Origin: Kiritimatiellia bacterium
GTDB taxonomy: Bacteria > Verrucomicrobiota > Kiritimatiellia > RFP12 > UBA1067
DNA length: 64,000 bases
Assembly (NCBI GenBank): GCA_017405115.1
Contig: JAFRBA010000020.1
Coordinates: forward strand, 36,056-100,055
Direction: 5' to 3'
In this document: positions 43,025-60,631 of the stretch, one piece after another
How the letters are laid out: the number at the start of each line of letters is the position of its first letter
Numbering within the stretch: position 1 is the first letter of the stretch
Made by a program: the position numbers and the translations under genes
Notes under the pieces: model-generated
The model's database searches: none
Told to the model about the DNA's origin: nothing
The model's input: the letters and a program-made list of their open reading frames with translations, nothing else

Positions 43025-43093
43025 CATTCGCGTCGGCGATGTTGGTATCTTTCATGCGGTCAGGCAGGGGAGCGGATCTTCTTGCCTAGGAGT

Positions 43094-43150
43094 CTGTGGG
43101 GCCAGGCCCCGCGAAAGCCTTGTAAATTGGGCCTTTGCGCGTTCTGGCGG
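43094..43150 (+). repeat. REP element upstream of the intact RAYT
   Basis: CTGTGGGGCCAGGCCCCGCG followed by AAAGCCTTGTAAATTGGGCC; the same unit as at 21505. Bases 43151-43300 to the transposase gene show no gene and contain a further GC-rich hairpin around 43272-43297. Confidence 0.7.
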
Positions 43151-43315
43151 GATGTGCCCCCCGTTAGTTCCATGTCTCGGACATGTCGCGTCCGTGTCGC
43201 GAAAAAAGGACACGAAAGCGACACCTTGGCGACCCGCAGCGCGCCAGCCTTTGCTATCCTGTTGCTGTCTTGGCGGGGAGCGCCCCCGCCGGGCGGAAAA
43301 GAAAGGAGCAAAGGC

Positions 43316-44131
43316 ATGGCAAGGCCAAGACGCATAAAGAAAACGGCGGCAGGGGTCGCCTACTACCACCTCATGTCGAGGACGAACGACAAGCGGTTCC
43401 TGTTCGATGGGGGAAATGTAAAGACGCAGCTCGTGGACGCGCTCAAGCGCGCCGCGGCTTTCTCGGGGGTCGAGGTCGACGCGTACGTGGCGATGGACAA
43501 CCACTTCCACGTGGTCTGCAAGGTTGTGCGCCCCGAGGAGCCGGTCCCCGAGGACGAGCTGATCCGCCGCGTCGCAGCGCTCAAGGGCGAACGCGCGGCA
43601 GAGGAGCTTGCGTCTCACTGGAAGGAACTGCGCGGAATCGGCATGGATGCTGCCGTAGAGGATGCGCAGGAGCGGCTCCGCGCGCGCATGAACGACATAA
43701 GCGAGTTCATGAAGACGTTCAAGGAGACGTTCGACGCCTGGTATAAGCGCGAGAGGAAGTACACCGGGTCGATCTGGAGCGGTAGGTTCGCGTCGACGCT
43801 CGTCGAGGGCGGGCGCTATCGCGCGATCTGTATGCGCTACGTCTACTTCAACCCGATCCGCGCCGGGATCGTATCCCGCGCCGGCGACTACGCCTGGAGC
43901 TGGATTGCCGCGCCAGAGGCGCCTTTCGCGGGGCCTGGCCCCTCGGAATGGCTGATGCGGAGGGTGGCGCAGATAGGCGGGGGTAAGGTGTTCGGGAGCG
44001 AGGCGTTCGTGGTGGCGACGGCGTTTGCGCTCGGGGACCGGTTCCGAAGCAGGCGCGTTTCTGCGCGTTTGGTGGGTGAGCTGGGCTTCGCGACGCACGG
44101 ATGGAGGCTCGCGAAGGAGGCCGCGGCATGA
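43316..44131 (+). CDS. RAYT: REP-associated tyrosine transposase (Y1 family), intact
   Basis: 271 residues with GAAAGGAGC before the ATG. RAYTs are single-copy HUH transposases that cut and spread REP palindromes. Motifs: Y-Y-H-L-M-S-R-T-N-D near residue 16, the HUH site M-D-N-H-F-H (His63, His65), a Tyr-rich segment F-D-A-W-Y-K-R-E-R-K-Y-T-G around 135-147 that should contain the catalytic Tyr, then I-W-S-G-R-F and Y-V-Y-F-N-P-I-R-A-G. REP units lie on both sides, and a third REP-like half (43919-43946) lies inside the reading frame, where it encodes A-P-F-A-G-P-G-P-S. Two decayed relatives are present at 21762 and 36233. The link between this enzyme and the surrounding REPs is strong by location. 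Confidence 0.88.
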   Translation: MARPRRIKKTAAGVAYYHLMSRTNDKRFLFDGGNVKTQLVDALKRAAAFSGVEVDAYVAMDNHFHVVCKVVRPEEPVPEDELIRRVAALKGERAAEELASHWKELRGIGMDAAVEDAQERLRARMNDISEFMKTFKETFDAWYKRERKYTGSIWSGRFASTLVEGGRYRAICMRYVYFNPIRAGIVSRAGDYAWSWIAAPEAPFAGPGPSEWLMRRVAQIGGGKVFGSEAFVVATAFALGDRFRSRRVSARLVGELGFATHGWRLAKEAAA

Positions 44132-44139
44132 GCTGGATG

Positions 44140-44192
44140 CGCGAAACCCCTGCAAAATGGGCCTTTTGCGGGGCATGGCCCCGCAGGGAGTT
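44140..44192 (+). repeat. REP element downstream of the intact RAYT
   Basis: GCGAAACCCCTGCAAAATGG then GCCTTTTGCGGGGCATGGCCCCGCAGGGAG in the same order as the other units, with the second hairpin GCGGGGC-AT-GGCCCCGC. Confidence 0.7.
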
Positions 44193-44251
44193 ATTCCCCA
44201 ATCCGCTGGTATCAGCGGATGTCTGCAGCAGGAGCTTGATGGTGTTGCCGC

Positions 44252-44281
44252 TTGCCATCACGCAGTCCTCAGTGCTATAAT
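44252..44281 (+). promoter_or_regulatory. Strong promoter, leaderless
   Basis: TTGCCA (44252-44257), 18-base spacer and TGC-TATAAT (44273-44281). The -10 ends seven bases before the ATG at 44289, so transcription should start on or next to the start codon. Confidence 0.65.
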
Positions 44282-44288
44282 TCTTAAC

Positions 44289-44459
44289 ATGGGCGATTCC
44301 AAGAAGAATACGACCGACGACCTGGGAACGTTGGAGCTCGCAATAATCATGACAGTGACGGGTGCGCTCGCATTCGGCGCGATTGTTTTTTTCGCCTTCC
44401 TTCTCGGCATGGCAGGAGCAAAACCGAACGGTAGCGGACCGCTTCCATGGATGCCGTAG
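44289..44459 (+). CDS. Small single-span membrane protein (56 aa)
   Basis: A 56-residue protein: acidic/basic N-terminus M-G-D-S-K-K-N-T-T-D-D-L, one membrane helix from about 16 to 41 (I-I-M-T-V-T-G-A-L-A-F-G-A-I-V-F-F-A-F-L), and a short G/P-rich tail ending P-L-P-W-M-P. I do not recognise the family. The support for expression is the very good promoter placed directly on its ATG. It lies between REP elements, with no partner gene. Possible roles include a membrane-acting small protein or toxin-like peptide, but nothing in the sequence decides this. Confidence 0.55.
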   Translation: MGDSKKNTTDDLGTLELAIIMTVTGALAFGAIVFFAFLLGMAGAKPNGSGPLPWMP

Positions 44460-44588
44460 CAGCGCTTTCCCCGATTTCTTCTCCGCGTTGATACGCTCGA
44501 CGATGGCGTCGCGGGTGCGCATGTAGTCACCCATCGCGGCGTTGGGGTTGCTATCCTAGAAATCTGTCCCCGCTGGGAGTTAGCCGTG

Positions 44589-44762
44589 GAATCTGTGGGG
44601 TCAGGCCCCACGAAACCCTTGCAAAATGGGCCTTTCGTGGGGCCTGGCCCCGAAGGGAGTTGGCCGTGTAGAAGTGAATCTGTGGGGTCAGGCCCCACGA
44701 AACCCTTGCAAAATGGGCCTTTCGCGGGGCCTGTCCCCGAAGGGAGTTGGCCGTGTAGAAGT
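44589..44762 (+). repeat. Tandem REP pair, 87-bp period
   Basis: Two almost identical 87-bp units start at 44589 and 44676. Each has hairpin 1 (GTGGGG-TCAGG-CCCCAC), the linker GAAACCCTTGCAAAATGGGC, hairpin 2 (GGGGC-CTG-GCCCC or a variant) and the tail AGTTGGCCGTGTAGAAGTG. The tail of a third, older unit precedes the first (GAGTTAGCCGTG, 44577-44588). Confidence 0.85.
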
Positions 44763-45155: not shown

Positions 45156-45174
45156 AAGGCAGGCAAGATTCAGT

Positions 45175-45243
45175 GAATCTGTGGGGTCAGGCCCCACGAA
45201 ACCCTTGCAAAATGGGCCTTTCTGGGGGCCTGGCCCCGAAGTG
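45175..45243 (+). repeat. REP element between the remnant gene and the kinase gene
   Basis: Same unit as at 44589 from GAATCTGTGGGGTCAGGCCC through the second hairpin (GGGGGCCTGGCCCC), cut before the usual tail. Confidence 0.8.
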
Positions 45244-45250
45244 TGTATGC

Positions 45251-46210
45251 TTAATGTGCCCCACACGAACGAGGCAGTGTTACCGTTATGGTCGTGCCCT
45301 TGCCGAGTTTGGACTTGAGCTTCACGCTGCCGTGGTAGTGGCGGGTGACAAGTTCGTGAACGGTTGAGAGCCCTAGGCCCGTGCCGGGAACGCCAGAGAC
45401 GTTATCCGCGCGGTAGAAGCGCTCGAACACATGCTTCTGCGCGCGCTTTGGTATGCCTCGCCCCGTGTCTGAAACGGTGAGGACGACTCGCCGCCCGCGG
45501 ACAGCCAGGGAGAGCGAGACAACCCCTCCGTCTGCATACTTCACGGCGTTTTCCACGAGGTTGCCCACAAGTTCGGCAATCAGGGTCGGGTGGGCTCTGA
45601 CTATCACGTCCTCCGCCGGGACCGAACATTGGATTTCCACGTTTTTCTCGCGCATCTTCATGTCCGCAGCTATGCGGCAGACGGCGGCCGAGAGGTTGAC
45701 GTCCTCCGCCGAGGCTTCGTCGTATCCCGCGAAGTCCTTTGCGAGGAGCATGTACGAGTCAATCTTCTTCGTCTCGCACCGGCTTATCGCTTCGATTTCG
45801 GCGGCAGTCGATTTTGGGTCGGCGCTTCCGTCGAGGATGTCCCTTGCCGCGATGTTTATGGCAGAAAGCGATCTAGCCTGGTCGTGCATAGCGCGCCTTA
45901 CGAGGCCTTCGATCTCGTCGCCGAGCCGCTCCTGCCTCTTCCGGCCGCACCGCGCCATGACGACGACAAGTAGCAACAGTCCGGCGGTTGCCAAGTAGTA
46001 CCGCCTGGAGGCCGACATGCTATTGCTCAGTTGCTTGTAGAAGGTCTCGCGGTTTGAGTTTGTTATCGGCATCCTCAAGGTCTTTTGCGACATGCGGACC
46101 GAGTGGTAGTAGCCGATGGCGAGGCAGATCGCCAAGATTGGTATCATTCCCCGGAGGAATGCCTTGCCCAGCTGCCTTCCGAAGCCCGTCTCAGCAGTCA
46201 CGAAGAACAT
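45251..46210 (-). CDS. Membrane sensor histidine kinase
   Basis: 319 residues, translated second in the operon, overlapping the regulator gene by 20 bases. Two membrane helices (about 18-36 and 70-87) enclose a short periplasmic loop of some 33 residues, so it may sense a membrane or small-molecule cue. The HisKA-like motif R-R-A-M-H-D-Q-A-R-S-L holds His109. The ATPase domain is complete: L-V-E-N-A-V-K-Y-A-D (N box), D-T-G-R-G-I-P (G1), F-E-R-F-Y-R (F box), and G-T-G-L-G-L-S-T-V (G2). It pairs with the OmpR-type regulator and lies head-to-head with the secreted-protein operon at 47013, the likely target by position. Confidence 0.88.
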   Translation of the reverse strand: MFFVTAETGFGRQLGKAFLRGMIPILAICLAIGYYHSVRMSQKTLRMPITNSNRETFYKQLSNSMSASRRYYLATAGLLLLVVVMARCGRKRQERLGDEIEGLVRRAMHDQARSLSAINIAARDILDGSADPKSTAAEIEAISRCETKKIDSYMLLAKDFAGYDEASAEDVNLSAAVCRIAADMKMREKNVEIQCSVPAEDVIVRAHPTLIAELVGNLVENAVKYADGGVVSLSLAVRGRRVVLTVSDTGRGIPKRAQKHVFERFYRADNVSGVPGTGLGLSTVHELVTRHYHGSVKLKSKLGKGTTITVTLPRSCGAH

Positions 46211-46874
46211 ATCCCATCCCCCTGTTGGCGTCTATGATGTCACGCGGCGCGCCCAGCGCGGAGAATTTGTCGCGCAGCGCCTTGATCTTCAGTTCAAGCC
46301 GTATCGACATCCTGTTCACGTCGCCCCACGCCGCCTTTTCAAGGACGTCCGCGTCCACAATCCTTCCCTGCGCCTTGACCAGCGGAAGGAGTATGTTGAA
46401 CTCCTTTTCCGAGAGGTCCATTTTCGTCCTGCGGTAGCGCACCGTGCGTGTGTTGACGTTGACGTTTATGCTGCCCCACGACAGGACCTTGTTCTGGTTG
46501 GCGACGCTTCCGTGCCACATTGCGCGGCGCACCCTCGCCTGGAAGGTGTCCTTGTTGAATCGCTTTTCGATGTAGTCGTCCGCACCCAGGTTCAGGCATT
46601 CTGCCTCGCCGTGCACTCCTGCGAAAGCGCTGACGGCGATGATCGGAAGGTATGGCTTCGACTTGCGCACCTCCCGTAAGATTTCCCTGCCGTTCTTCTT
46701 CGGCAGCTCGATGTCGAGTATGACGATGTCGTATTCGGAGTTCAGAATCTTCTCCAATGCCAAGTCGCCGAACGCCTCGCGTTCGACTTCAAGCCCCATT
46801 CCGACGAGGAATTCCTTGAAGGACTTGTAGTGCCCGTCGTTGTCCTCGGCAACCAATGCCCGCTTCTTCTTCAT
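46191..46874 (-). CDS. OmpR/PhoB-type response regulator
   Basis: 227 residues. The receiver domain carries E10-D11, phosphoacceptor Asp54 in I-V-I-L-D-I-E-L-P and Lys104 in D-D-Y-I-E-K-R-F; the usual Pro after Lys is Arg. The C-terminal winged helix (about 130-225) reads L-S-E-K-E-F-N-I-L-L-P-L, then V-L-E-K-A-A-W, I-R-L-E-L-K-I-K-A-L-R and G-M-G-Y-V-L. The ATG is ten bases from a TGG-TATAAT box, leaving almost no leader and no ribosome site. Confidence 0.9.
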   Translation of the reverse strand: MKKKRALVAEDNDGHYKSFKEFLVGMGLEVEREAFGDLALEKILNSEYDIVILDIELPKKNGREILREVRKSKPYLPIIAVSAFAGVHGEAECLNLGADDYIEKRFNKDTFQARVRRAMWHGSVANQNKVLSWGSINVNVNTRTVRYRRTKMDLSEKEFNILLPLVKAQGRIVDADVLEKAAWGDVNRMSIRLELKIKALRDKFSALGAPRDIIDANRGMGYVLRDC

Positions 46875-51720: not shown

Positions 51721-52575
51721 ATGCAATATCGCTATACAAAACAAGGTGTTCATCTGTTTAACAGGGCAAGTGGCACAAATATCCTCATTGATGAGATGTT
51801 GTGCAATGATGAAATCCTGTCGGTGGCTCCTGCGAATGTTTCAATAGCGCTTACAAATAGGTGTAATAGATCATGTGTGCACTGTTTTGCGCCAAAGAAT
51901 GTAGCAGAACTGGATCATACCATGGTTTGCGACTGGATTGACGAGTTGAATAAAAATGGCTGCTTAGGCGTTGGTTTTGGTGGCGGTGAGCCTTTGCTTT
52001 ATCCGCACTTATGCGAAATATGTCAACATGTTTATTCTGCGACTTCGATGGCATGTACGCTGACAACGAACGGCGATTATCTAAATGATGAAACGGTCCA
52101 GTGGATGAAGCGCTATGTCAATTTCGTTAGGATAAGCACAAACGGCGAGACAATGGATTATTCGCGAATTGAGAACCTTGCTAGGCATCTTCAGATTGGC
52201 ATAAATTATCTTCTCAACGCTCAGACATTTCCTATGCTGATGGACGCAATAGAGCGTAGTGCACAAATAGGTGTTAAGGAATTTCTCTTGCTCCCACAGG
52301 TAAGGACAAAGCGTTGTCAGGGCGTTGATTCTCAGTTTGTTGCAATGGTGGATGATTGGTTACTATCTACGAAGTTGCCATTGCGAGTAACGGTGAGTGC
52401 TTTGTGCTCTGATAGTATGAAAGCGGTTGTTCCAATCCCTGGCGATGTTGGAGCGCGTCAGTATCTTCATATATCGGCAGATGGCATTTTAAGGATTTCA
52501 TCTTTTGGGACGGATGGCGTCCCGATCAAGAAAAACGGTATTATTCAAGCAATAAAGGAGGTTTATCAAAAATGA
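51721..52575 (+). CDS. Radical SAM protein, first gene of the STAND operon
   Basis: 284 residues. The C-N-R-S-C-V-H-C motif (Cys48, Cys52, Cys55) is the canonical Cx3Cx2C [4Fe-4S] site. G-F-G-G-G-E-P-L-L (about 85-92) is the SAM-binding G-G-E motif, and T-L-T-T-N-G-D and R-I-S-T-N-G-E follow at the expected barrel strands. About 40 residues before the core may be a small peptide-binding region. No C-terminal SPASM cysteines are present. Sequence and spacing differ from viperin-type enzymes. The stop overlaps the next start by four bases. AT-rich codon use contrasts with the window's GC-rich background. Peptide or protein modification is the usual job of such short radical SAM proteins next to a small partner; here it is inference. 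Confidence 0.82.
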   Translation: MQYRYTKQGVHLFNRASGTNILIDEMLCNDEILSVAPANVSIALTNRCNRSCVHCFAPKNVAELDHTMVCDWIDELNKNGCLGVGFGGGEPLLYPHLCEICQHVYSATSMACTLTTNGDYLNDETVQWMKRYVNFVRISTNGETMDYSRIENLARHLQIGINYLLNAQTFPMLMDAIERSAQIGVKEFLLLPQVRTKRCQGVDSQFVAMVDDWLLSTKLPLRVTVSALCSDSMKAVVPIPGDVGARQYLHISADGILRISSFGTDGVPIKKNGIIQAIKEVYQK

Positions 52576-52982
52576 AAGTGTGGAATAGCTACAGCTCTGA
52601 GCATTCGTCAAGGATTGTCCTTGTCGGGCATTTCAAGTCAGCGCCTGAGGCGAAGACTTTTCTTGCGGAGTATCAAAAGATTATAGAGTTGTCGATCAAG
52701 CACTTTGACGAGTGCCAACAATCGCCAGATGCATTCCCAGATGAAATACTAGAGTCGTTGTTTAGGGGCAAGATTAAGTTTACACAGGCCCTGGCCCCAC
52801 GTGATCTGATGGAATTCTGCATGGAGTTGACCCCTCGGGTTAAGGGGAGGGACTTTGTCCTTACCTCCAGCGAGTATGATTGGGGCGGGACACTCAAGAT
52901 GCTGTTGCTGGCAGGAGCTAAAGTTGAATTCTTTTCTGGGCATAATTACAAGGAAGAATACGATAAATATACTGAGGAATGA
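52572..52982 (+). CDS. 136-residue protein between radical SAM and STAND genes
   Basis: The start M-K-V-W-N-S-Y-S-S-E-H-S-S-R-I-V-L-V-G-H-F-K resembles a small uncharacterised family beginning M-K-(I/V)-W-x-S-Y-x-S-E-H-S (recalled, not checked). The predicted order is beta-strand, helices (A-P-E-A-K-T-F-L-A-E-Y-Q-K-I-I-E-L-S-I), then V-L-T-S-S-E-Y-D-W-G-G-T-L-K-M-L-L-L-A-G-A-K-V-E-F-F-S, a compact alpha/beta fold. It overlaps both neighbours by four bases, so it must be made together with them. It could be the radical SAM substrate, a sensor, or a regulator of the NTPase. No catalytic motif. Confidence 0.65.
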   Translation: MKVWNSYSSEHSSRIVLVGHFKSAPEAKTFLAEYQKIIELSIKHFDECQQSPDAFPDEILESLFRGKIKFTQALAPRDLMEFCMELTPRVKGRDFVLTSSEYDWGGTLKMLLLAGAKVEFFSGHNYKEEYDKYTEE

Positions 52983-55900
52983 TTTCTTACTCCGAGAAAG
53001 GCAGTCTTATTAACTGGACTGCATTTGAAATCAAGTCTGACGACCCGCCAAGGGATTTTGAGGCTTTATGCAGATCGCTGGTGCGGCTTGCGCTTGGCGG
53101 CGACGGAGAGTTTATCGGTTACAAGCAACAGTCTGGAGTCGAATTCATAGTAAAGGTAAATCGTGACAATTCAACTTTAGGAGGGAAGGGCACTGTCGTT
53201 GGGTGGCAATGTAAGTATTTTAGGGGGAAGTCATTGTCCTCGTCGCAGTTTGGTAAGATAAAAGACTCATATCATAAGACGATTCGGGATTATAAAGATG
53301 TCGTGAAATGGATACTGTGGACCCCCGAATGCTTATCCAAGTCCGATCAGGCACGAATCAAGAAGTTGCGCAACAAAAAGCATGCAGTAAAAGAGATCGC
53401 TTTTTGGCATGCCGATATGATTCTAGCGCTTTCAGCTATTTTGCCACGTACTTCTTTATTGCTCTCGTATTTTGGGCGGTATTCTTTTTCGAGAAAAGAT
53501 CTTGATGATGCACTTGAAGATGCTATTGTGCCAATTTTGGGCAAATGGAAGAAAGAAGTGCATTGTGTGAGCAGCGCGGAGAAAATGGTTCGTAGGGCTC
53601 TGTTTGAAGAAAAGTATTGGGGAGGGGCATGGAAGACAGCTGTAGAACTAGCGAAACTGAAAGTTTTGTTAGATGGATGTAAAGACATTGATGGACTTGA
53701 TGGGCTTATCACCGACATAGAGTCTCTCCAATTGCAATACGGGACGCTATTGGATGCCATAAAGGATGGCCGTATAATTGATGTGCAGGTAGCAGATATG
53801 ACATTGCAATTAGACGAAAAAATATCGTGCGTCCTCAAGGCTGCATATTCGAAAGCAAACAATGCTGCATTCCTATTGCATAATTTATTGCATTATTCAC
53901 GGCTCCCAGGCGTTCAGGTGCAAAATATTAAGAAGCTATTGTCAGAGCCGATTATAGCAGTTAAGGCCCCGCCGGGAATGGGGAAAACGCATTTATGCAT
54001 ATCGGTCGTTTCTCCTACCGAAAAGCGTCCTGCTGGTTTCTTGTTCCTAGCAAAGGGGCTGCGCAAGGGGTTCACTATTGATGAATTTGTACGAAGCCAG
54101 AGCTTTGCGGGACGGACATTTGAAAATCTTGATGCTCTTCTCAACGCACTGGACTCTGTTGGCCGTAAGCATGGCTGCATTATGCCAATTGTGATTGATG
54201 GTCTGAATGAATCTGAGTCTCCAGGAGAATGGATTGATAAGATTGCGCTCATGCGTACAAAGATTAGGCGCAATTATCGCAATGTCAGAGTCCTTGTAAC
54301 ATATCGGTGTCCCAAAAGTCAAGCGAGAATCTCCGACGTTCGCGCAGTTCCTGATCAAACAGATAAGGTCGTCGAGTTGGATTATGAAAAAATGTGTTTG
54401 CCGACTGGAATTAATACAATACAGATAGAGGCGGAGAATCTGGTCGAAATGGTATCGCGATATTTCACTCTATATAATATTGTTTTTAAGGGACGTATAC
54501 CTAATCTACAAAACACTGCTTTGCAGGACCCGTTGCTTATTCGTATATTTTGTGACACAAATAAAGACAAGGAGGTGGTGACGGCTGATTTCTATAGCGC
54601 ACATAATGTTTTCACGTCTTGGATAAGTGCTATTGAGGGGCGCATTTGCGATGGTGCTGGGTCGCGTGGATATCATTCTAAGGAAGAGTTTAGAAAATCC
54701 TTAAATATTTTTGCTGAGCTATTGTGGAAACATAGGAGCAGGTGCGTGGCGGCAGACGAAATGGATGAGGGAATGCAATGTCGAGATAAAGATTGGCTGT
54801 ATAAATGGTCCACAATTCTTGCTGATGAAGGAGTTGCAATGCGGTTCCATGCCTCCAATACTGGGGAATCGATTTTGGAGGGTGTTCATGACAGTGTTTC
54901 TGGTTTTCTTATCGCGAAGTATTTGAAGGGCACGGACAATGATTTTTCAAATGTATTTTCAGTCCTTGAAAATCAGAATCATCCTCTTGCGTCTGACATT
55001 ATTTCTTCCCTTGTTCCTATGTGGATGGAGATGTATCCAAGTAAAGATATTATTGAGGTGATACCAAAGAGGATGCTGTATTGGGCGATAAATCGCATTT
55101 TGGCATCGAATAAGAAACATTGCCCGGCCGCTACGATTAGATCGCTTTGGCGAATGAAAGTGCCCAATTCGGAGGTGCCTTGGCAGAAGGGTGATATTCT
55201 TTGGAAGTCTGTATCGCAGTGTATGTCGGGAGCAAAGGCCTTTAATGGCGAGGTGTTAGACTTGTATTTGACGGACATGAATATGGCTGAGCGTGATGCG
55301 TTGTGGGGTCTGTGGGTGCATGGGATGAAAGAACTTATTTATGAACATCTCAAGATTGTGTTTGAGAACATGGATAGTATTGGCATGGCGGATGTTAAGT
55401 CGGTCTTTACATGTTGCAAATGGCTTCTTTCCAGCAATGTGCCCCCTATAAGAGACTTGGCGACAAGGTTGGTGTGTGCGATTGGTGAGAAGTTCCCAGA
55501 AGAAGTATTGGATTTGATTGATGATTCGTTAAGCGTCAATGATTTGTATATCCTTGAACGCTTGGTTGCCGCTGGTTATGGAATTTGCATTTTCTTGAAC
55601 GGTTCTTCCGACTCTAGTGATAAGCATGGCTTGATGTTGAGATATTCAAAGGCATTAAAGGATAAGATATTAAAGAAGGGTGCTCGGTATTCGACCTCGC
55701 ATTATGGTGTTCTGAATTATGCAATTAATACTGTTGCGTTGGCCACAAACAATAAGACGTGTAAAGTAGTTGTTTATGCCAATCCATTTGGACAAGGTAG
55801 GCATGTGTCGGACGGCGATTTGCAAAGATCGAAATTTGCCACCATTGGAGATTTAGATTTTGTTTATAAGGATTTGGCGCATGTAGTTGGGGGGCGTGAT

Positions 55901-57007
55901 TATCAAACTAATACAAGCCAATATAAAAAAGCGTATGACCAAGTTCAGAAGCGGATATTTGCGCTGGGATACAGAGATGAGCAATTTGAGAAATACGACA
56001 GATTTATTCGAGATGATAGATATAGAAGTAACAGGCAAGAGGAATTGTTTGCAACGAGATTTGGAAAGAAATATGCTTTGATAGCGTATATGGAGTTGAA
56101 AGGGCGCGTTGACAAAAAAATTGAATGCTGGGATCGTTGGCATGAAATATCAATAGACCCAACATTCCCTGATGCCCCACAGCAATTGCCCTTGTGGAAG
56201 AGTCATCCGCTGATTAAAGGAAAGTTTAGAAACATGCGGCAATGGCTTTATGGGGGCTTCAGCCCTGACATAGGGAGGCTGGCGGCAGGGGCGTTTATGG
56301 AGGGCTCGGCAGCTGATTTTGTTTTGATCAATGGATATATGAAAGAGGAAGATAACTTTGGGAGAAGAGTCTTTGTCAAGATAGATGGGTTGCTAACGCC
56401 AGCGAAAACTCTTGCGGTTGTGGAGAAACATTATGACAGTATGCGCATTGATTGCCCGCAATTCTATTATTCGTTTCATGGTGAATCGCCATGGTCATTG
56501 AACTGGCGTTCGGCGGCTCCCGAATATGATCAATTTGGGATAAAACTTAAACCGGAACTTGTTGATGATAATCTGCCCAAAGATTCAAAAGGAAGTAATA
56601 TACCGGTAGAATTATTGACGGTTTGCTACACGTGGGAATCATATCATTCTATTCAGAATAATGTTGGTGGATATCTTTTGAGTGCCTATGTTGCGCAGCG
56701 ACTTGGACTTAGGCTGGTGCCGCATAAATGGGAGTATGTTGATCGTGATGGTAATCTCGCTGGCAGGTATTACAGCTCAAAGGATACTTCGAGAAGCGCT
56801 GAACTGTTTTATCTCAGAAAAGACCTACTTGAGAAATATACAAAAAAACGAAAAATGATTTTTCGTATTGGATACAGGGGAGAACGGCAGATCGCGTATG
56901 GGCACTATGACAAGCACAAGGCGGTTTATGAGCGTTGGCGAGCGGGTGATGACATGTTCTGTGGTTTTCTTGATCCGCTTGTCGGGACGCACACGGCACC
57001 ACTTTGA
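52979..57007 (+). CDS. PD-(D/E)xK nuclease - STAND NTPase (Avs-like defence protein)
   Basis: 1342 residues. Residues about 25-160 look like a restriction-type PD-(D/E)xK nuclease: F-E-A-L-C-R-S-L-V, G-V-E-F-I-V-K-V (Glu55) and V-V-G-W-Q-C-K-Y-F (Gln77, Lys79), a Cap4/Mrr-like arrangement. A helical segment leads to the NTPase: Walker A A-P-P-G-M-G-K-T-H (Lys336), Walker B I-V-I-D-G-L-N-E (Asp407), and a sensor-like V-L-V-T-Y-R-C. The I-D-x-L-N-E form is typical of Avs-type STAND proteins. About 750 residues of helical repeats and a final mixed domain would be the ligand-sensing part. Avs proteins bind a conserved phage protein, assemble and cut DNA. I cannot assign it to a numbered Avs type. 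The radical SAM companion is the unusual element. Confidence 0.78.
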   Translation: MISYSEKGSLINWTAFEIKSDDPPRDFEALCRSLVRLALGGDGEFIGYKQQSGVEFIVKVNRDNSTLGGKGTVVGWQCKYFRGKSLSSSQFGKIKDSYHKTIRDYKDVVKWILWTPECLSKSDQARIKKLRNKKHAVKEIAFWHADMILALSAILPRTSLLLSYFGRYSFSRKDLDDALEDAIVPILGKWKKEVHCVSSAEKMVRRALFEEKYWGGAWKTAVELAKLKVLLDGCKDIDGLDGLITDIESLQLQYGTLLDAIKDGRIIDVQVADMTLQLDEKISCVLKAAYSKANNAAFLLHNLLHYSRLPGVQVQNIKKLLSEPIIAVKAPPGMGKTHLCISVVSPTEKRPAGFLFLAKGLRKGFTIDEFVRSQSFAGRTFENLDALLNALDSVGRKHGCIMPIVIDGLNESESPGEWIDKIALMRTKIRRNYRNVRVLVTYRCPKSQARISDVRAVPDQTDKVVELDYEKMCLPTGINTIQIEAENLVEMVSRYFTLYNIVFKGRIPNLQNTALQDPLLIRIFCDTNKDKEVVTADFYSAHNVFTSWISAIEGRICDGAGSRGYHSKEEFRKSLNIFAELLWKHRSRCVAADEMDEGMQCRDKDWLYKWSTILADEGVAMRFHASNTGESILEGVHDSVSGFLIAKYLKGTDNDFSNVFSVLENQNHPLASDIISSLVPMWMEMYPSKDIIEVIPKRMLYWAINRILASNKKHCPAATIRSLWRMKVPNSEVPWQKGDILWKSVSQCMSGAKAFNGEVLDLYLTDMNMAERDALWGLWVHGMKELIYEHLKIVFENMDSIGMADVKSVFTCCKWLLSSNVPPIRDLATRLVCAIGEKFPEEVLDLIDDSLSVNDLYILERLVAAGYGICIFLNGSSDSSDKHGLMLRYSKALKDKILKKGARYSTSHYGVLNYAINTVALATNNKTCKVVVYANPFGQGRHVSDGDLQRSKFATIGDLDFVYKDLAHVVGGRDYQTNTSQYKKAYDQVQKRIFALGYRDEQFEKYDRFIRDDRYRSNRQEELFATRFGKKYALIAYMELKGRVDKKIECWDRWHEISIDPTFPDAPQQLPLWKSHPLIKGKFRNMRQWLYGGFSPDIGRLAAGAFMEGSAADFVLINGYMKEEDNFGRRVFVKIDGLLTPAKTLAVVEKHYDSMRIDCPQFYYSFHGESPWSLNWRSAAPEYDQFGIKLKPELVDDNLPKDSKGSNIPVELLTVCYTWESYHSIQNNVGGYLLSAYVAQRLGLRLVPHKWEYVDRDGNLAGRYYSSKDTSRSAELFYLRKDLLEKYTKKRKMIFRIGYRGERQIAYGHYDKHKAVYERWRAGDDMFCGFLDPLVGTHTAPL

Positions 57008-57288: not shown

Positions 57289-57855
57289 ATGATGGAAACC
57301 ATAACGACACCGGAAGAAATTGCGCATCTGCGAAGTGAAGTCACCACCTACAACGCGGCTGCAAAGTGGGAGGTCATACAACCTGATGACCCTATAAGCG
57401 AATCATCCCTTGAAAATGCTCTTGTAAGGCTCAAACCCTTCGTAGACAAAATAGGTTCTCGCAATCTCTCAACAGACTACAAAACCGTTCCGATTGACGA
57501 AAAGCTATCCCTTAACGATTTGAAGAACGACGCAAAGGCGGATATAGGCAGGGCCATGTGTTATTATAAAACGGTTGATGCCTATGTGCGAGGTGAAGAC
57601 CGTTCCCATCCTGGTTTTCATCGGCGTGTAGCGAACTTTTTCATCGGGCTATACAATGAATGTCGCCGACAAGGTTGCTTTGGCGACGATCTCTACAGAA
57701 TCATGATTCTTTGGTTTAACCGACAAATGGGAAATATGGCCTTGGAACCTGTTGCCGCTGCTCTTGTTGCCTATCTTTTTGCAAAATGTGACATCTTTGA
57801 AAAGACAGAAGAAGAAAAGCGAGTTGCAAAGCCAATTTCGGAGGTCGCCGCATGA
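57289..57855 (+). CDS. ABC-3C system C-terminal-component-like protein, short form
   Basis: 188 residues. Position as first gene before a middle component and a DUF2326-type ATPase, and the C-terminal helices (H-P-G-F-H-R-R-V-A-N-F-F-I-G-L-Y-N-E-C, D-L-Y-R-I-M-I-L-W-F-N-R-Q-M-G-N), fit the C-terminal component of ABC-three-component systems. Those usually carry an effector domain (peptidase, nuclease or other) fused in front. Here only about 70 unremarkable residues precede, so no effector is visible. Overlaps the next gene by four bases. The family assignment rests on context and general pattern. Confidence 0.6.
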   Translation: MMETITTPEEIAHLRSEVTTYNAAAKWEVIQPDDPISESSLENALVRLKPFVDKIGSRNLSTDYKTVPIDEKLSLNDLKNDAKADIGRAMCYYKTVDAYVRGEDRSHPGFHRRVANFFIGLYNECRRQGCFGDDLYRIMILWFNRQMGNMALEPVAAALVAYLFAKCDIFEKTEEEKRVAKPISEVAA

Positions 57856-58082
57856 TTCTTCCTGACAAATATATCCCCGTAAGCGAGACCTTCCTCGGCC
57901 TTGGAGCTATCGCACTTCGTCATCTTAAAGATTCGCCCAAATCAATTTCGCGTCTCCGTAACGAAATGCTTAAGTATCGTGAAGTTGGCAATTATGCTCG
58001 CTTTGTTTATACACTTGACTTTCTTTACGCACTCGGTCTTGTAGAAATGTCGAATGGTATGATTAGGAGGGCTGCAATATGA
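57852..58082 (+). CDS. ABC-3C system middle component (76 aa)
   Basis: 76 residues: M-I-L-P-D-K-Y-I-P-V-S-E-T-F-L-G-L-G-A-I-A-L-R-H-L, then a winged-helix-like pattern ending in F-V-Y-T-L-D-F-L-Y-A-L-G-L-V-E-M. Size, the opening and position match the small middle components (MC6-like) that link the ATPase with the C-terminal component. Four-base overlaps with both neighbours. Confidence 0.75.
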   Translation: MILPDKYIPVSETFLGLGAIALRHLKDSPKSISRLRNEMLKYREVGNYARFVYTLDFLYALGLVEMSNGMIRRAAI

Positions 58083-59869
58083 TTTATTCGCTTTCAGCAA
58101 ACAAGCCATCGTTCAACAAAGGCAAAAGTCTGATATTCCATGCTGGGCTGAACATAATTCTCGGAGTGAAGTCCGAGAACGCTAACACTAAAGACACTAG
58201 AAATAGCCTTGGAAAATCAACAGTCCTCAATCTGATAGATTATTGCCTAGGCGCAAACATTCTTCCTGAATTGACAAAGGAGGAATTGAGCGATTGGGCT
58301 TTTACGATTGATATTGACATTGGCGGTAGCCGTGTAAGGGTGACTAGAGCCCTGTTGGAGGAGTCCAGAGACCTTATTGAAATCGAGGGCGATGTGACAA
58401 AATGGCCAATCCCGCCTGATACTCTAGCAATAAACGGAGGCACGAGCAAATATGGAATTGAAAACTGGCGTAAGCTCTTAGGTGCAGTATTCTTTTCCTT
58501 GCCAATTCACAATGGAGAAGTGCCAGTTGCAGAAAAGCCACCATCATACCGGGAGTTAATGGGATTCTTCCATCGTAAATCGTTCCAAGGAGACCTAACG
58601 CCGTCGAGCGCAAGCGAAAGTGCAACTTCACGCGACAGAACACTTGCATATCTTCTTGGCCTAGAATGGGAATTTGTTAGCCGTTATTCAGCACTGACAG
58701 CACAGGAGAAAGATGCAAGAACTATTCGCGATGCGGCCACGATAAAGCGTAAGGAGTGGCACGAAAAGTCCGTTAGGGCACTTGAAGGAACATGCAAAAG
58801 GCTCAAAACCGATCTTGATAGTATTCGCAGTCAGCTTTCAGAATTCAAGGTTGATCCGCTTTATCATCAATCGGAAGAAGAAGCTGACCGTTTAACTCGA
58901 GAATTACATAAAGTACGCAGGTCGTTCTACTCTAATCGCCGTGCTCTTGGCGCTGCAACGCAATCCCTTAGAGACGACTTTGCCGAACCTGATGGGTTGA
59001 AAGAACTTTATGAGGAGGCTGGAATCACCTTTCCTGACGCAATTGTGCATACTCTTGACGAAGTAGCCCAATTCCATCGTGATGTCGTTCTAAACAGGCG
59101 TAGATTTTTGGAAGAGGAAATTAGACAGTTGAAAGGATTAATCAAACAAGAAGAGCCAAAGTTGGAACAACTGGACAAAGCGCGGAGCGAATGCCTAAAA
59201 CATCTTGGCACGCATGGCGCATTGGAAGAATTTGCCTCATTGCAGGATAGGCGTGAAAAGCTCGTGTCAGAACTTTCGGCAAAAATGCAATGTCTAAACG
59301 ACTTAAAGAAATCAAGTAGCGATCTGAAGAAAATCAAAGACGATAAAGCGACCGAACTTTCAGCCGCAAAAGATGAGTTCGATCATCGCGGCCAGTACGC
59401 GGAAGCGGCTTCCTCAACCTATAGGACGCTAACGGAATCGCTTTATGAGGAAAGCGGCGCTGGAACTTTCGAGATCGATTTTCTGGAAAAAGCTGACGCT
59501 GGCAAAAAATCTGTAGGGTTTCGCTTCAAGGCATTTTTGCCATCAAGTGGTGGGGCGGGCAAAGGCAAGATAAATCTCTATGCTATTGACATGACGATTT
59601 TCAAGCAGCAAAAACTATGTAGGCGCAACATTTCACTGATGTTGCATGACGGCGAAATTTTCACGTCCGCAGATGAGAGACAGGTCGCAACCGCACTGGA
59701 GCTTGCGCATAAATACGCTCTTGAACGCGATGGCCAGTATATCACTGGGTTCAACGACGACAAGCTGCCAACGACCCAATTCTCTCCAGAGTTCAATATT
59801 GAAGATTGCATCGCCCTCAGACTCTATGATGGCTCGGTAGAAAACAAATTGCTTGGGATTGAGTTTTAG
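58079..59869 (+). CDS. ABC-3C coiled-coil ABC ATPase (DUF2326-like, SMC/RecF fold)
   Basis: 596 residues. N-terminal ABC half: F-H-A-G-L-N-I-I-L-G-V-K-S, followed by the family's Walker A variant K-D-T-R-N-S-L-G-K-S-T (Lys46), then L-I-D-Y-C-L-G-A-N. Residues about 200-425 form a long coiled coil with K/E/L heptads (V-S-E-L-S-A-K-M-Q-C-L-N-D-L-K-K-S-S). The C-terminal half returns to the ATPase with I-S-L-M-L-H-D-G-E-I-F and a D-E-R-Q-V-A-T-A-L-E-L-A segment. ABC-3C systems are predicted anti-phage complexes in which the ATPase senses DNA or replication disturbance and triggers the effector. Length is normal for the family. Confidence 0.82.
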   Translation: MIYSLSANKPSFNKGKSLIFHAGLNIILGVKSENANTKDTRNSLGKSTVLNLIDYCLGANILPELTKEELSDWAFTIDIDIGGSRVRVTRALLEESRDLIEIEGDVTKWPIPPDTLAINGGTSKYGIENWRKLLGAVFFSLPIHNGEVPVAEKPPSYRELMGFFHRKSFQGDLTPSSASESATSRDRTLAYLLGLEWEFVSRYSALTAQEKDARTIRDAATIKRKEWHEKSVRALEGTCKRLKTDLDSIRSQLSEFKVDPLYHQSEEEADRLTRELHKVRRSFYSNRRALGAATQSLRDDFAEPDGLKELYEEAGITFPDAIVHTLDEVAQFHRDVVLNRRRFLEEEIRQLKGLIKQEEPKLEQLDKARSECLKHLGTHGALEEFASLQDRREKLVSELSAKMQCLNDLKKSSSDLKKIKDDKATELSAAKDEFDHRGQYAEAASSTYRTLTESLYEESGAGTFEIDFLEKADAGKKSVGFRFKAFLPSSGGAGKGKINLYAIDMTIFKQQKLCRRNISLMLHDGEIFTSADERQVATALELAHKYALERDGQYITGFNDDKLPTTQFSPEFNIEDCIALRLYDGSVENKLLGIEF

Positions 59870-59881
59870 TTCTACTGTGCC

Positions 59882-60631
59882 ATGCATGTAAAACCATCAG
59901 ACTTTGGGATAACTCCACGGGCGGTTCTCGATACGCTCAAATTAATATCAATTTCGCGACGTGAGGTTTTGAATATTGTCAATGTGGTTGACTGTGATGC
60001 GCCGGGCAATGCAACTGCTCTTGATCGCAACTCATTTGCAGGGATGAAGAATGCGCTAATGGTTTATGAAGTATTTTTGTGTGGTGCCGGATTCCCGTTT
60101 GCGCAGAATGAGAAGGTAAATGCAGCTTGTGCAGAACTTCATCAAGCGTGGTCGAAGCTCATTCAAGCGGTTTGTAGACATAGCGCTGACAAGAAGGTTG
60201 CAAAAAGACTTTCTGATGCATGGTCTGCGGCCATTGACGAATTGGGGGCTATACTTGAGAGGGTAAAGATGAAGACAATTAAATCAACGCGGAAATATAA
60301 GGATTTTGTTGGCGCATTAGATCGTGCAGCAGAGGCAATGGGAAATTCTAACAGGACGATTAGAGCATTGGGAAGCGACAACGGGGAATTGTCGCCCAAA
60401 GAAAGGAAGCAACATGATTGGAGAACAATAAGGCGGATATGTGAAAACGAAATGACTTCGGCAGGGATGAATAGCGGCACAGGTATTACGGAAGCTGCGC
60501 GCCGAGCTGAAAAAAGGGGGCTTTTGGTTTTCTACAAAAACGCTCGTAGTGCGGCATCGGCGTATAGCCAGGCCTTGGGCAAATATCATGAAACGATGTG
60601 GAATAAGATGACGCTGCCGGACGACGATTAG
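59882..60631 (+). CDS. 249-residue protein, last gene of the ABC-3C operon
   Basis: Starts 12 bases after the ATPase stop and is followed by an intrinsic terminator, so it belongs to the operon. Mostly helical, with Trp-Ser and Ala-rich helices (A-E-L-H-Q-A-W-S-K-L-I-Q-A-V-C, L-S-D-A-W-S-A-A-I-D-E-L-G-A-I-L-E-R-V) and a basic C-terminal region (K-E-R-K-Q-H-D-W-R-T-I-R-R-I-C). No recognised domain. Because the C-terminal component lacks an effector, this protein is the natural candidate for that role, but I see no catalytic motif. Confidence 0.6.
   Translation: MHVKPSDFGITPRAVLDTLKLISISRREVLNIVNVVDCDAPGNATALDRNSFAGMKNALMVYEVFLCGAGFPFAQNEKVNAACAELHQAWSKLIQAVCRHSADKKVAKRLSDAWSAAIDELGAILERVKMKTIKSTRKYKDFVGALDRAAEAMGNSNRTIRALGSDNGELSPKERKQHDWRTIRRICENEMTSAGMNSGTGITEAARRAEKRGLLVFYKNARSAASAYSQALGKYHETMWNKMTLPDDD

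Follow-up and report, generated by a model that had tools for sequence, protein, structure and literature searches.

Do three overlapping genes of a Kiritimatiellia bacterium form a single defence system, and what might a radical S-adenosylmethionine (SAM) enzyme (rSAM) and a small protein contribute to the STAND NTPase encoded behind them? The genes lie in a 64,000-nt stretch of contig JAFRBA010000020.1, called the window here, and the coordinates of its open reading frames (ORFs) count from its first letter. All three ORFs are on the plus strand and start with ATG, and the four-base overlaps described in an earlier note on this DNA were found at both junctions (52572-52575 and 52979-52982). 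The products are an rSAM enzyme, a protein of the family DUF6375 and an Avs2-like STAND NTPase. These three genes are a near-obligate, widespread unit conserved across phyla; to the further reading, an Avs2-like sensor-nuclease anti-phage system whose DUF6375 protein is modified by the rSAM enzyme, we give an even chance.

A three-gene unit conserved across phyla

On the rSAM side, one genome per species was scanned with the rSAM alignment as query and the best 80 of 211 loci were kept; one extra viral contig from IMG/VR was taken in beside the genome scan. Partners were called by phmmer with the three proteins of the window, and by coordinates. From L049 onward, L050 excepted, these loci held generic rSAM genes, and the synteny counts leave out L046 and L048, at contig ends, and L050, with a truncated rSAM gene and a phage-integrase gene alongside. 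The DUF6375 gene stood directly after the family rSAM gene in all 47 loci with downstream sequence, with a 4-bp overlap in 37 of them; there was no overlap in L043, whose rSAM is split over two ORFs. A STAND gene was found in 46 of the same 47 loci, the sole exception being L041. It was split over several ORFs in L032, L035, L043 and L045, and reached the contig end, or stopped within two bases of it, in L002, L007, L021 and L047.

The search from the DUF6375 side covered six draws of 396, 398, 199, 247, 337 and 343 genomes (1920 in total), which overlap, a one-genus draw being nested in an earlier phylum draw and at least one genome occurring in both. Matches above the cut-off came from 15 genomes, six of them seed genomes. 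Both the rSAM and the STAND gene lay beside the match in the nine others (9/9), the STAND of L106 in two ORFs. Seven of these nine loci were new, and L086 and L090 were identical to L025 and L024 from the rSAM side. Exactly one DUF6375 gene per genome or record was present in all 21 searched with known loci. The co-occurrence that the earlier note had looked for outside the source genome was thus recovered from both sides, and by the counts of 47/47 and 46/47 the rSAM gene does not belong to a housekeeping family found without the STAND gene.

On plasmids, all 16 DUF6375 matches overlapped an annotated radical SAM gene, and 13 of the 16 plasmids had a STAND match among the matches listed, that of H61 containing an IS3 transposase. 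As for the remaining three, the D. peraridilitoris plasmid carried an IS3 transposase gene over the end of DUF6375, and two were absent among the matches listed. The plasmid records name the genes 'radical SAM protein', 'DUF6375 family protein' (once 'hypothetical protein') and 'hypothetical protein' or 'ATP-binding protein'. A DUF6375 search of phage records found none. By their records the triad sets belong to about 16 phyla, in three of which the sole STAND gene reaches the contig end (Acidobacteriota, L002; Myxococcota, L021; Thermodesulfobacteriota, L047). The arrangement is not due to chance, since it recurs across phyla, and the phyla were intermingled in the rSAM tree, the pattern expected of horizontal transfer. 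No description of the triad was found in the literature, most subscription papers lying outside the search, and the accessible parts of PMC10853773, PMC7159879, PMC13356809, PMC10250203, PMC4158269, PMC5379612 and PMC12931631 do not describe it.

The divergences of the three proteins were strongly correlated (r 0.78-0.89; at most 0.23 after shuffling). This mirror-tree comparison used pairwise divergences over 41 sets, the window's included; it left out L021, L035, L043 and L045, with the STAND cut or in pieces, and no STAND row was available for L007, L032 and L041. As the pairs are non-independent, its bootstrap intervals are rough. The partial correlation of DUF6375 was 0.40 with the nuclease region of the STAND protein (bootstrap 0.26-0.51) and 0.00 with its C-terminal region.

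The STAND protein and its two partners

In Pfam the third gene matched only NPHP3_N (E 9e-6). In PADLOC it matched Avs2 (E 6e-59, best stretch residues 11-871), with stronger matches from two relatives (E 6e-114 and 4e-113). When 45 triad STAND proteins, among them that of the window, were combined into a profile, it aligned near end-to-end with the protein annotated as Avs2 in Rhodothermus marinus (1254 columns in hhalign, E 1.5e-71; two stretches in hmmsearch, 422.7 bits). By sequence comparison, the kinship with Avs2 spans the entire STAND protein, with its nuclease, STAND ATPase and C-terminal parts. The protein scored 130.8 bits against the NCBIfam Avs2 cut-off of 1000 (NF041813), and with homology this wide but the cut-off missed, it is best placed as an Avs2-related branch and not as a filed Avs2 member. 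The likeness to Avs proteins claimed in the earlier note was in this way narrowed to Avs2. The nuclease front also matched the N-terminus of Avs4, and the Avs1 and Avs3 models gave no match. Among plasmid STAND matches, triad members had 30-38% identity over 77-97% of the query, and annotated avs2 24-26% over 38-43%.

The nuclease and Walker motifs that had been pointed out in the sequence are intact. In the alignment of 45 rows, the window's included, Glu55 was present in 42/42 rows with a letter there, and position 79 was Lys in 37 and Arg in 5; Gly333, Gly335 and Lys336 of Walker A were present in 44/44, and Asp407 and Glu411 of the Walker B stretch IVIDGLNE in 45/45. Avs2 works as a single gene. 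The triad STAND gene has constant partners in front, the rSAM and DUF6375 genes, on which it may or may not depend; the 10.5 kb surrounding Avs2 in R. marinus gave no match to the rSAM and DUF6375 profiles. Avs1 and Avs3 resemble the triad in joining a STAND nuclease with accessory genes, none of which is known to encode a radical SAM enzyme.

The first gene matched PF04055 (E 5e-14), and the cysteines named in the earlier note (Cys48, Cys52 and Cys55 of CxxxCxxC) were present in 113/113 rSAM rows. The enzyme thus has the catalytic cluster motif, together with a predicted fold nearest to viperins and to SuiB and SkfB, maturases of ribosomally synthesized and post-translationally modified peptides (RiPPs). 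SuiB and SkfB aligned to the AlphaFold model from residue 1, N-terminal strands included, and viperins only from residue 32-38; these predicted strands are possibly a peptide-docking remnant resembling a RiPP recognition element. RiPP maturases have their substrate encoded next door, a trait for which the DUF6375 tail is a candidate only. In contrast to their systems, the partner here is a folded 136-aa protein and not a short precursor peptide.

The radical SAM core of the model resembles the viperin fold, and prokaryotic viperins likewise have an antiviral context; the triad differs in its two constant partner genes. The rSAM enzyme could make a modified nucleotide or small molecule that DUF6375 binds, the pair setting the STAND nuclease with no protein being modified. 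This is unlikely: the enzyme scored 45.8 bits against the NCBIfam viperin cut-off of 180 (NF038283), with the GeoRSP model scoring higher; the N-terminal strands align with SuiB and SkfB, not with viperin; and the invariant disordered tail of DUF6375, kept with the rSAM even where no STAND was found (L095, below), would be left without explanation.

With a Pfam match of 79 bits (PF19902, E 7e-22; cut-off 27.5), the 136-aa protein is a member of DUF6375, a named family without an assigned function, on which the literature search found no paper among those accessible. The core of its AlphaFold model was confident, with only weak, generic ferredoxin-like matches in structure comparison, and residues 1-11 were predicted to be disordered, with a predicted local distance difference test score (pLDDT) below 50. 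The N-terminal twelve residues were the best conserved (3.73 bits per site vs 2.45 over the remainder, 48 sequences). In a set of 174 sequences, which includes 120 of 593 profile-search matches in a choice biased toward conservation, W4, E10, H11 and S12 were present in 174/174, Y7 in 166, G8 in 167 and S9 in 167. This N-terminus is very likely the true one, because its Met start lies within the 4-bp overlap with the rSAM gene in 37 of 47 loci. A near-invariant tail that is disordered in the model of the protein alone has the look of a peptide entering the site of a partner. Longer DUF6375 proteins were observed in Acinetobacter (L036:6321-6848, 175 aa; L039:10903-11418, 171 aa), that of L036 having a C-terminal tail made of a run of PEN repeats.

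The viral contig offered a different arrangement of the pair. At L095:6886-15344, a DUF6375 gene (45.7 bits, above the cut-off) precedes the rSAM gene in reversed order with a 4-bp overlap. The pair comes after a DUF2971 gene and ahead of the Res and Mod genes of type III restriction, with phage portal and S49 peptidase genes near. A search for a STAND gene in L095 and L098, together about 17 kb of this 31.7-kb contig, found none. The tail is recognisable (MRIWRSYGSGHS, with Gly in place of E10), and by eye the C-terminal S122/H124 region is not kept. This single locus, thin evidence by itself, suggests that the rSAM and the tail form a module, the rest of DUF6375 facing the partner. It also bears on an arrangement in which the tail inserts into the rSAM enzyme as a docker or activator and the STAND protein itself is the substrate. 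The shared operon and the conservation and disorder of the tail fit such docking equally, and DUF6375 tracks the nuclease region as an enzyme-nuclease adaptor might. We consider it improbable all the same, as the L095 pair stands beside restriction genes with no STAND found, and under docking the substrate would therefore have to differ there.

The STAND gene was absent or fragmented, with rSAM and DUF6375 persisting, in L041, L099, L035, L032, L043, L045, L106 and H61. Annotated transposase genes were found in L099 and H61, and in L041 transposase-like ORFs followed DUF6375, recognised by eye and by helix-turn-helix Pfam matches, with no Pfam transposase above the cut-off. The losses look as if the STAND gene were costly. 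A self-contained rSAM-DUF6375 module (a modified effector, a toxin-antitoxin-like pair or a redox sensor) could instead merely travel with STAND or restriction genes, the STAND alone working like Avs2; the pairs kept in L041 and L099, the L095 pair and the R. marinus Avs2 without these partners would all agree with it. It is nevertheless very improbable in view of the near-complete linkage of the three genes, their matching divergence, and the transposase-like or annotated transposase genes at the breaks in L041 and L099.

Several results weigh against modification of DUF6375 within a defence system. Most peptide-modifying rSAM enzymes differ from this one in having a SPASM or PqqD domain or cysteines for an auxiliary cluster; a Pfam search of 113 rSAM members at E up to 1 found neither domain (0/113), and no such cysteine set is present in the 113-row alignment. 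The root-mean-square deviation of the model was lower with most viperins (2.3-2.8) than with SuiB and SkfB (3.4-3.5). The disorder of the modelled tail may reflect the absence of a partner or ligand from the model, and its residues are not all fixed: with variation at Y7, G8 and S9, and with Gly for E10 in L095, only W4, H11 and S12 are constant throughout the sequences compared. The partial correlation of DUF6375 with the rSAM was weak when the STAND parts were held constant (0.13, bootstrap 0.01-0.26); this neither excludes nor supports contact through the tail, because an invariant tail is invisible to a divergence test. The tie to the nuclease region could come from mere gene adjacency. 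On a Paraburkholderia plasmid (L100:4671-9484), a STAND remnant lies in two pieces with IS66 genes between, and no rSAM or DUF6375 profile match was found in the 14.4 kb around it. Finally, the flanks of the triads were not clearly enriched in defence genes: with PADLOC at E 1e-10, 129 ORFs drawn at random from 300 (at least 150 aa, within 5 kb of triads) gave matches to 44 families, vs 71 families for 137 ORFs drawn from 203 beside unrelated rSAM loci. The control matches include generic rSAM and cysteine desulfurase models, and the triad flanks include Wadjet, Uzume, Dsr1 and restriction models; having family counts only, without member names, the test was weighed neither for nor against defence.

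The locus in its surroundings

The coordinates of the features are collected in Table 1.

Table 1. Features of the triad in the window
Feature	Position	Strand	Basis
rSAM enzyme, 284 aa	51721..52575	+	PF04055; 113-row alignment; AlphaFold pLDDT 95.2; SuiB, SkfB and viperin as closest folds
CxxxCxxC motif, Cys48/52/55, for the catalytic [4Fe-4S] cluster	51862..51885	+	invariant in 113/113 rows
rSAM N-terminal three-strand sheet, residues 2-23	51724..51789	+	strands E2-6, E9-14, E19-23 in predicted model
DUF6375 protein, 136 aa, predicted ferredoxin-like core	52572..52982	+	PF19902; AlphaFold pLDDT 88.6
DUF6375 N-terminal tail MKVWNSYSSEHS	52572..52607	+	proposed rSAM target or docking peptide; W4/E10/H11/S12 conservation; low pLDDT
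Avs2-like STAND NTPase, 1342 aa	52979..57007	+	PADLOC Avs2 E 6e-59; family profile vs Rhodothermus Avs2
PD-(D/E)xK-like nuclease region, residues 1-215 (limits set by us)	52979..53623	+	Glu55, Trp76-Gln77-Cys78-Lys79; alignment
Walker A, residues 331-337, Lys336	53969..53989	+	Gly333, Gly335, Lys336 in 44/44
Walker B region IVIDGLNE, residues 404-411	54188..54211	+	Asp407, Glu411 in 45/45
STAND C-terminal region, residues 901-1342 (limits set by us), putative phage sensor	55679..57004	+	aligned to C-terminal part of Avs2 (hhalign, hmmsearch); conserved RYGKKY-type motif

The copy in the window strays from otherwise conserved sites more than any other member (12/66 in the rSAM, 4/16 in DUF6375 and 29/116 in the STAND), G8 of the DUF6375 tail being replaced by S. 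It groups with P0009-P0028 and P0039 in a divergent clade of the rSAM tree. The GC content was 0.42-0.49 across 51-61 kb and 0.55-0.68 elsewhere in the window, an AT-rich island that holds the genes described as AT-rich in the earlier note, and the neighbouring ABC-3C system named there was located downstream of the triad at 57289-60631 (CTD10 and DUF2326; matches to PADLOC PDC-M68A/B). Its third ORF (249 aa) had no family match above any cut-off.

Upstream of the triad, an 87-nt repeat was observed at 44120-44762 and 45172-45200, with tandem copies at 44589 and 44676 that are 98% alike, one copy at 66% and related shorter ones. An ORF close to the repeat (43082-44131) encodes an IS200-like transposase domain (Y1_Tnp). 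Histidine-kinase-like and response-regulator genes form a two-component pair on the minus strand at 45251-46874.

Proposed mechanism and significance

The kinship with Avs2 and the genomic setting point to a likely role of the triad in defence, and the invariant, predictedly disordered tail, the RiPP-maturase-like predicted fold and the L095 pair lend indirect support to DUF6375 as the protein that the rSAM enzyme would modify. The 5'-deoxyadenosyl radical of the enzyme would modify one residue of the tail (MKIWxxYGSEHS), and the modified DUF6375 would bind the STAND protein close to the nuclease/ATPase half, either licensing STAND activation or restraining it until infection. The C-terminal region would then meet a phage protein (terminase, portal or another, as in known Avs), upon which the triggered STAND would assemble, its front nuclease would cut DNA and the infected cell would die. 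In its strictest form, an NLR-like receptor (NLR, nucleotide-binding leucine-rich repeat) armed by radical modification of a dedicated small protein, with only modified DUF6375 letting or stopping the STAND nuclease, this proposal is tentative, with the chances somewhat against it.

A radical SAM effector acting on a neighbour-encoded peptide in an NTPase-driven manner has been predicted for FtsH-type vWA-MoxR ternary conflict systems (PMC7159879). They were compared with the triad by description only, and the accessible part of that description names no STAND/Avs protein or DUF6375. According to the accessible part of PMC12931631, Avs1-4 sense the phage terminase or another phage protein and kill the cell.

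Avs proteins are leading examples of NLR-like immunity in bacteria, and the accessible sources describe their control in terms of the sensing of phage proteins. With a constant rSAM enzyme and a partner bearing a near-invariant tail, enzymatic protein modification would become a further layer of Avs control, and DUF6375 gains from the triad a concrete candidate role. If this is true, the L095 pair would be a portable radical switch that is also attached to restriction enzymes.

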